Shown: one piece after another, positions 10,685 to 14,758 of the stretch
Numbering within the stretch: position 1 is the first letter of the stretch
Layout: the number at the start of each line of letters is the position of its first letter
Source of the DNA: an uncultured Flavobacteriales bacterium
Lineage (GTDB): Bacteria > Bacteroidota > Bacteroidia > Flavobacteriales > BACL11
Assembly (NCBI GenBank): GCA_905478765.1
Contig: CAJQJY010000017.1
Location: forward strand, 1-43,700
Length of the DNA: 43,700 bases
Reading direction: 5' to 3'
The notes under the pieces: model-generated
What the model saw: the letters and a program-made list of their open reading frames with translations, nothing else
What the model was told of the DNA's origin: nothing
The model's database searches: none
Position numbers and translations under genes: made by a program

Positions 10685-11398
10685 TTATTCAAAAGTAAAC
10701 GAAAGCATCCAGCCGTTTGTTGTTAATCGATTAAGTGATTGATTGTAAATAGATTCGTCCTTTGAAAGCAAGTTAAGTAATCCGTAAGATAATTTTATTT
10801 GTGGAGAGAATTTAAAGTATTCTAAATAAAAATCTAATCCAAAACCAACTTCACCCATTAAATCATTTTTTTTCAATTTTACAATTTCTTGCCCTTTATC
10901 ATCAATTTTATCTTGAGAAGCAATATCTATACTGTACTTTAATCCTCCAATTACATATGTTCTGAAATTATTATATCTGGCAGATTTGTATTTAATGTAA
11001 ATTGGAAAATCAATGAGTGTAGATTCTATTCTCTTAATACGCATATCATCTTTTTGTTCTTCATCTATAAATCCATAATATAAATGTCTTTCTCCAAAAA
11101 CTAAAGTTGGTACAAATCTTAAATCTGTATATTTTCCAATTCTGAGGTTAGATACAATACCCAAATTAAATCCTTTTTGACTTTTTGAATGCAGTGTTTT
11201 TAAAGTGTCATTTGTAATAGTATTCGAATTCTTCTGCATGTTAAAGTTTAAATCATTTATTCCTAGTGTAAAACCAAAATGTAATTTTTTGAAATCGTAT
11301 TGTATTAAGTTTTGTGCTCTTTTATTCCTTTGAGCTTTAGAATTAAGTGTCCCTAAAAACAAGGCAAGTAAAAGGAAATATATAGTGAGTTTTTGCAT
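10685..11398 (-). CDS. porT: T9SS outer membrane beta-barrel protein PorT
   Basis: PorT is needed for type IX secretion and gliding in Bacteroidota. This 237-aa protein has a signal peptide (residues 1-23, ending SKAQ), then a short basic linker. An eight-stranded-barrel-like sequence follows with alternating aromatic strands (KKLHFGFTLGINDLNF, NLGIVSNLRIGKYTDLRFVPTLVFGERHLYYGF). It ends in a strand finishing GWMLSFTFE, with the terminal Phe-x typical of barrel proteins. It lies directly after ubiE, the usual order in flavobacteria. Identification rests on pattern and neighbourhood. The T9SS tails at 1-127 and 247-1647 would be its clients. Confidence 0.88.
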   Translation of the reverse strand: MQKLTIYFLLLALFLGTLNSKAQRNKRAQNLIQYDFKKLHFGFTLGINDLNFNMQKNSNTITNDTLKTLHSKSQKGFNLGIVSNLRIGKYTDLRFVPTLVFGERHLYYGFIDEEQKDDMRIKRIESTLIDFPIYIKYKSARYNNFRTYVIGGLKYSIDIASQDKIDDKGQEIVKLKKNDLMGEVGFGLDFYLEYFKFSPQIKLSYGLLNLLSKDESIYNQSLNRLTTNGWMLSFTFE

Positions 11399-14419: not shown

Positions 14420-14758
14420 ATGAAAAAGATGATTTTAATACTTATTTTGGTAATTAGTTGCACAACAATTACTAAAGCTCAAAAAGTATTCTCAGTTGAA
14501 TATGCAAGCCAAGCTGATATTAAAGTATTTGTTGCTGACTATGAAAGCAGAGCTGATTTATCTGTTTATAAGGTTGATTACGAAAGCCGAGCAGGAAAGA
14601 ATGACGGGAATTGGTTTTTTGTAGATTATGCAAGTAGGGCAGACAAGAAAATCTTCTTTGTGGAATACGCTTCACAAGCTGATATTATCATTTATTTTGC
14701 AGATTACAGTAGCGGGGCGGGATGGAAAAAGAAAGAAAAAATGCATTTATTTTATTAA
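14420..14758 (+). CDS. Secreted six-repeat protein, DUF6150 (7_1 knot-like) family
   Basis: A 112-aa protein with a signal sequence (residues 1-21, ending TKAQ). A lipoprotein cut before C14 (VIS-C) is an alternative. The mature part is six copies of a 13-residue unit, consensus [VI]-[FYW]-x-[VA]-[DE]-Y-[AES]-S-[QRG]-A-[DG]. The central Tyr falls at 28, 41, 54, 70, 83 and 96, with an extra NDG turn in the middle. From memory this matches DUF6150, whose members are reported or predicted to fold as a deep 7_1 knot; a profile search is needed to confirm. Function is unknown. It is a single gene, divergent from aspC and convergent with meaB. Confidence 0.75.
   Translation: MKKMILILILVISCTTITKAQKVFSVEYASQADIKVFVADYESRADLSVYKVDYESRAGKNDGNWFFVDYASRADKKIFFVEYASQADIIIYFADYSSGAGWKKKEKMHLFY

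Follow-up and report, generated by a model that had tools for sequence, protein, structure and literature searches.

The gene, its surroundings and its family

The window, by which we mean the whole stretch of 43,700 nucleotides analysed here (from an uncultured Flavobacteriales bacterium), carries at positions 14420-14758 (+) a complete gene, running from ATG to TAA, for an exported DUF6150 protein of 112 amino acids. The gene is present as a single copy in its genome (1.6 Mb, 20 contigs searched) and is flanked by a class I/II aminotransferase gene, which is divergent, and by meaB, which is convergent; a scan for promoters and terminators gave results at the level of chance. Residues 1-20 (14420-14479, +) form the predicted signal peptide, with cleavage expected between Ala20 and Gln21 on the basis of the -1 and +1 residues of relatives and of the Q-rule (PMC5837995), while the mature protein of 92 amino acids, residues 21-112, is encoded by 14480-14755 (+). 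When the mature part was compared with near relatives for which dS was unsaturated (L008, L009, L012, L015 and L018), dN/dS ranged from 0.024 to 0.057, which indicates strong purifying selection on the gene. Elsewhere in the window are a tmRNA gene (1681-2050, -) with the tag GENNYALAA, and a gene (10688-11398, -) for an outer-membrane beta-barrel protein that matches OMP_b-brl_2 and is presumably similar to PorT, a type IX secretion component.

The initial annotation had proposed a DUF6150-like protein, and the profile search agrees: residues 18-110 match positions 6-97 of the 98 in Pfam PF19647 (DUF6150) with an E-value of 4.3e-22 and a score of 78.4 bits (cut-off 27). NCBIfam returned no match over a cut-off. 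DUF6150 was found in 27 of 60 related genomes, its own included, the others being 12 of 13 in the genus, 13 of 23 in the other genera of the family, and one of 23 elsewhere in the order. Wider sampling gave 39 of 196 genomes in the order and 17 of 296 across the phylum; in three other families the counts were 2 of 9, 13 of 80 and 19 of 120. When named genome contigs were scanned, at least 388 relatives were confirmed among 592 candidate stretches. Searches of plasmid and phage proteins matched none. The family is thus widespread but patchy, common in marine and other Bacteroidota, and the protein of the window is therefore an ordinary member of it. In one genome (G593), a DUF6150 copy is split over two reading frames (L163, L164), and an intact copy (L154) lies on the same contig.

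Gene order was compared in 80 loci, drawn from the at least 388 confirmed relatives. The aminotransferase gene adjoins DUF6150 in 22 of the 80, its place being kept in the bacterial family to which the window belongs; outside this family the neighbours vary, and no partner gene recurs widely there or hints at a function. Since the neighbours change elsewhere, the DUF6150 gene probably works alone. A PnuC-like gene followed by an AAA_28, nucleotide kinase-like gene lies 3' of DUF6150 in six of the 80 loci (L067, L079, L085, L090, L098 and L124), across several lineages, and in L068 the PnuC-like gene alone follows, with the contig ending nearby. These clusters were defined by BLAST, with Pfam run on both genes of L067 and L124 and on the PnuC-like gene of L079. 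As PnuC is found in 55 of the 60 relatives anyway, no link between it and DUF6150 is claimed. In eight near relatives (L046, L048, L049, L050, L052, L054, L058 and L061), a same-strand gene lies 4-22 bases downstream of DUF6150, and its product has a similar leader (of the type MKKLLLILxxLPxIGFxQ) on a different body; this gene is absent from the window. To judge from these sequences, the slot downstream of DUF6150 in near relatives looks like a variable place for exported proteins.

Six repeat units that change together

The mature protein is built of six units: the unit Tyr residues stand at 28, 41, 54, 70, 83 and 96, giving the spacing 13-13-16-13-13, and further Tyr residues lie outside the unit positions at 50, 92 and 112. 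Unit 1 (VEYASQADIKVFV; 14495-14533, +) and unit 2 (ADYESRADLSVYK; 14534-14572, +) are followed by unit 3 with its longer central linker (residues 52-67; 14573-14620, +), and then by unit 4 (VDYASRADKKIFF; 14621-14659, +), unit 5 (VEYASQADIIIYF; 14660-14698, +) and unit 6 (ADYSSGAGWKKKE; 14699-14737, +). When the mature sequence was shuffled 20,000 times, the identity summed over the 15 unit pairs averaged 13.9 ± 3.5, with a maximum of 32; the real value of 84 puts the six-unit periodicity far beyond chance. The Tyr positions, the spacing and the closeness of units 1 and 5 (identical at 9 of 13 positions, the closest pair in this protein) had all been read from the sequence beforehand, and each of these observations holds.

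The three extra residues are central, lying between unit 3 and unit 4 around N61-D62-G63 (14600-14608, +), as had likewise been noticed, and this is the sole site at which spacing varies in the family. Indeed, the outer spacings are 13-13 and 13-13 in 130 of 130 distinct family copies, while the centre measures 16 residues in 122 of them and otherwise 17 (four copies), 15 (three) or 14 (one); the count comprises copies with all six unit positions aligned, and those in which a unit position falls in a gap (L027, L041 and fragments, for example) are outside it. The pattern is hence a property of the family and not peculiar to the window. Locus L041 (985-1701, -) encodes a 239-residue protein without a leader, in which five 13-residue DUF6150 units without the central insertion are followed by a linker and then by a weak SH3_3 match, below the cut-off.

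Within a given protein, most or all of the six units tend to one loop motif, be it YESRAD, YSSQAD, YAHQAD, YPNQSD, WKSDAD or others. The within-protein match at offset +3 (0.849) lies above the maximum obtained by permutation (0.586), and 36 of the 45 strongest covarying pairs, counted by hand, link the same offset in two different units. Mean same-offset covariation is about 0.108 for interleaved, 0.102 for sequential and 0.112 for other unit pairs, and shows no preference for interleaved over sequential neighbours. One case is genus g226 (L147, L148, L150, L154 and L156), where Trp replaces Tyr in all six units and every unit carries the loop WKS(D/E)A; elsewhere in its bacterial family, most members have Tyr. 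The protein of the window is less uniform than many, with Gln, Arg and Gly all occurring at offset +3. The tree of motif switches is weak, with one supported independent pair among the comparisons listed.

Synonymous codons provide a view of how this likeness is maintained. Across 121 of 122 genes, they match between units at 0.524 against an expected 0.469, and in the window gene the match is below chance (0.378 against 0.475). With values so near chance, it seems to be selection on the protein that keeps the units alike, and not recent DNA copying. Nine of the 121 genes, L133 and L033 among them, exceed the synonymous expectation by more than 0.2, and in these few lineages recent homogenisation may have occurred. 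A duplication of a three-unit half had been suggested from the closeness of units 1 and 5. As a recent event, whether duplication or gene conversion, this finds no support: synonymous codons are near chance between units, the pair 1-5 lies outside the half-duplication register, and the commonest closest pair in the family is 4-5 (38 of 87 rows), followed by 1-5 (20) and 1-4 (16), in a count that leaves out nine rows whose mature part is other than 92 residues. As an ancient event, a half duplication is possible, since across the family the register-3 pairing (1-4, 2-5, 3-6) has the highest mean score (37.0, versus 33.2, 29.2, 21.2 and 19.4).

The shared motifs can be read in two ways. The loops may face outwards and act together, as in the interpretation that we favour; alternatively, with family and fold unchanged, the loop motif may be the rung of an internal packing ladder, with no repetitive ligand and a role for the protein that is unrelated to its loops. 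Packing would fit well with same-offset covariation that joins many unit pairs, with a Trp-for-Tyr exchange that extends to all six units of g226, and with units that are kept alike by selection and not by recent copying, but sits less comfortably with offsets +1 and +3, which are mostly polar or small (Glu, Ala and Ser; Gln and Arg), as expected of a surface loop. Internal packing explains the shared motifs about as well as a ring of ligand-binding loops, and the packing alternative as a whole is a serious one, to which we would give a little less than an even chance.

Predicted fold and likeness to a 7_1-knotted protein

The AlphaFold2 model of the mature protein, built with 96 relatives, has a pLDDT of 95.8 and a pTM of 0.83, and DSSP assigns to it a C-terminal helix (mature residues 85-91; 14732-14752, +) and, ahead of this, six short strands with a helical turn of three residues after each. 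A Foldseek search of the PDB with this model placed entries of Q9PR55 at ranks 1-4 of 47, with E-values of 5.8e-3 to 5.7e-2; the remaining matches begin at an E-value of 1.0, and many are SPOUT methyltransferases. Q9PR55 is an 89-residue Ureaplasma protein for which AlphaFold predicted a 7_1 knot with its core at residues 27-83 (PMC9278004, in the portion available), and the knot has been confirmed by X-ray crystallography (PMC11223836, PMC13352647). In the available portions of these two papers, it is the only natural 7_1-knotted protein described as confirmed.

In structural alignment with VIA-align 2, four of the 164 chains compared reached a Z of 2 or higher, each of them Q9PR55. The best alignment (Z 6.5) covers 60 residues at 1.8 Å and places residues 1-82 of the model on residues 25-84 of the chain, skipping 22 model residues; the aligned stretch contains the whole knot core, and on this ground the model falls with the fold of the 7_1-knot group. 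A Z of 6.5 is middling by the program's own note, yet it stands alone among the 164 chains. A phage homologue (L168), modelled separately, behaved in the same manner, with a pLDDT of 95.2, four of 227 chains at Z of 2 or more, and a best Z of 6.6 over 60 aligned residues at 1.8 Å; as their underlying alignments largely overlap, the two models are not fully independent. The suggestion of a 7_1-type fold, made at the outset, is in this respect strengthened. The name "septoil knot", which accompanied it, turned up in the literature searched only for soft-matter rings and not for any protein.

Other searches were silent. HMMER searches of PDB sequences, with the profile and with single sequences, gave no match to Q9PR55, and a fold search of BFVD gave nothing below an E-value of 1.2. 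The missing sequence match may still leave room for common descent with Q9PR55.

The spacing suggests a path for the chain. Six units could make two interleaved laps around a ring, three units to each, with the longer central linker carrying the chain from the first lap into the second; on such a path, it would follow that the outer spacings never change and that only the centre does. A toy two-lap ring of six units gave a determinant of 5 or 7 in 51-56 of 60 closures under five settings, while a toy ring of sequential units gave a determinant of 1 in 57 of 60. With five units, the determinant was 5 in 50 of 60 closures with the last return and in 23 of 60 without it; a determinant of 3 also occurred. 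The geometry of these rings is assumed, and a determinant of 5 or 7 is not unique to 5_1 or 7_1, so the toy model says no more than that the spacing of the repeats agrees with the knot types described in the Q9PR55 group.

The principal rival at the level of fold is an unknotted repeat solenoid, whose likeness to Q9PR55 would be local, with similar strand-turn units wired otherwise. Foldseek's own superposition on Q9PR55 is poor (TM 0.32, rmsd 10.2), showing that in this register the courses of the two chains diverge; this speaks for such a solenoid, and the chain path may differ in part from that of Q9PR55. Moreover, AlphaFold2 does not respect topological barriers (PMC10672856, in the portion available). 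These points are outweighed, in our view, by an alignment, obtained with two different sequences, of 60 residues at 1.8 Å that spans the knot core in full, with no chain but Q9PR55 reaching a Z of 2 among the 164 and 227 compared. Furthermore, the AlphaFold prediction of 7_1 for Q9PR55 was itself borne out by X-ray, and a sequential solenoid offers no reason for a fixed longer centre. We consider the solenoid unlikely. The fold predicted for the window protein is most likely that of the torus-knotted Q9PR55, and knotted; as to knot type, 7_1 is our leading guess and 5_1 the next.

Phage copies, export and proposed role

A search with alignment A2 found exported DUF6150 relatives on 14 IMG/VR viral contigs, encoding nine distinct proteins (L165-L188; for example L168:3357-3722). 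Single-sequence searches of the viral contigs found none, and 50,697 phage records yielded no relative. Six of the nine proteins were submitted to Pfam, and all six pass the DUF6150 cut-off. Adjoining genes match PHROGs for a baseplate wedge (L182), terminase large subunit (L187), RIIA lysis inhibitor (L188), RNA-binding protein (L179) and DNA ligase (L181), while four of the ten neighbour proteins compared have no match; PHROGs holds no convincing family for the DUF6150 protein itself. One might see in DUF6150 a phage-derived envelope modifier, acting for example in superinfection exclusion and now domesticated in bacterial genomes. The viral contigs, several with phage genes alongside, speak for this origin, but the gene has a stable chromosomal place next to the same aminotransferase in the family of the window, and bacteria carry it often but phages seldom (14 loci in 2.9 million contigs). 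PADLOC, in addition, with its models of known anti-phage defence proteins, returned no families for P0001 and L168. This origin appears quite improbable.

The leader of the window protein had been read as a sign of secretion or lipid anchoring, in contrast to cytosolic relatives. Among 96 distinct relatives (a set that leaves out duplicates, proteins with X and those with an HMM score under 50), 95 have a leader of at least 15 residues, 94 have Gln at +1 after it, and 90 have Ala or Ser at -1. Secretion is hence the rule in this branch of DUF6150 and no oddity, and the supposed contrast with cytosolic relatives falls away. Anchoring as a lipoprotein via Cys14 we hold to be very improbable and reject on the leaders of the family: VISC fits the lipobox pattern in L007, L008 and L009 as well as in the window protein, but the pattern fits only six of 95 leaders, two of these at another place, the family does not keep the Cys (L015, at 96% identity across the full protein, has VIIC), and what is conserved is the cleavage site before Gln. 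In Bacteroidetes, substrates of signal peptidase I expose a Gln that is turned into pyroglutamate, the so-called Q-rule (PMC5837995, in the portion available). With Gln21 directly after Ala20, export of the window protein as such a substrate is strongly supported. The plant-type glutaminyl cyclase (PF05096) was not found in the genome of the window; an animal-type enzyme may or may not be among its two good matches to Peptidase_M28.

Returning to the reading that we favour, the gene would be expressed as a preprotein whose leader is cut before Gln21, with pyroglutamate expected at the new N-terminus. For the 92 mature residues, the high-confidence model predicts six units of strand plus helical turn and a C-terminal helix. 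The subsequent steps are the most conjectural. The knot may yield a small, protease-resistant envelope protein presenting six equivalent loops, Tyr-x-Ser-Gln/Arg-Ala-Asp, which together could bind a repetitive envelope or extracellular partner, and phages might carry the gene in order to alter the host envelope. As to function, our best guess, which we infer from these features, is a small, tough envelope protein whose six equivalent loops act together. Overall, an exported DUF6150 protein with a Q9PR55-like, probably knotted fold and a six-loop role in the envelope is the reading to which we give reasonable, though far from full, confidence.

New here are the carriage of exported DUF6150 by phages, the lineage-specific motif that the six loops of a protein tend to have in common, and neighbours that are not conserved across families. 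Our search of the open literature, outside subscription journals and databases, found no paper naming DUF6150 or PF19647, and the link between this family and the 7_1 fold may be absent from open print. A large exported family with the same likely fold, strong selection, invariant spacing and natural five- and six-unit copies would allow knot type, unit number and function to be compared directly, and phage carriage is a possible handle on function. A bolder proposal, which we consider rather unlikely, is that the exported DUF6150 branch forms a natural series of torus knots in bacteria and phages, in which unit number and central linker set the complexity and the six loops co-evolve as one functional ring. 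If so, five-unit (L041) and six-unit copies would differ in their knots, and the knot of the six-unit form may be 7_1 or may even surpass in complexity all those solved, for example as 9_1; among natural proteins of solved structure, Q9PR55 has the most intricate knot to date.

In comparison with known systems, the window protein belongs to a known kind and likely has a knotted fold. It matches PF19647 over nearly its full length, with no difference in what was tested. Its only solved fold relatives are the structures of Q9PR55 from Ureaplasma urealyticum (PDB 8IWA, 8IWB and 8JRM), with which it shares 20% identity in the structural alignment, without an HMMER sequence match, and 82 residues of the model span 60 of Q9PR55. 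P73136, a homologue of Q9PR55 with a predicted 5_1 knot, was grouped with it by its authors' comparison (PMC9278004, in the portion available). The Knotted Solenoid fold (PMC13123833, likewise), a homodimeric 3_1 solenoid from another bacterial group, was not among the fold matches seen; like the window protein, it is a small bacterial repeat protein, knotted in that case and probably in this one.
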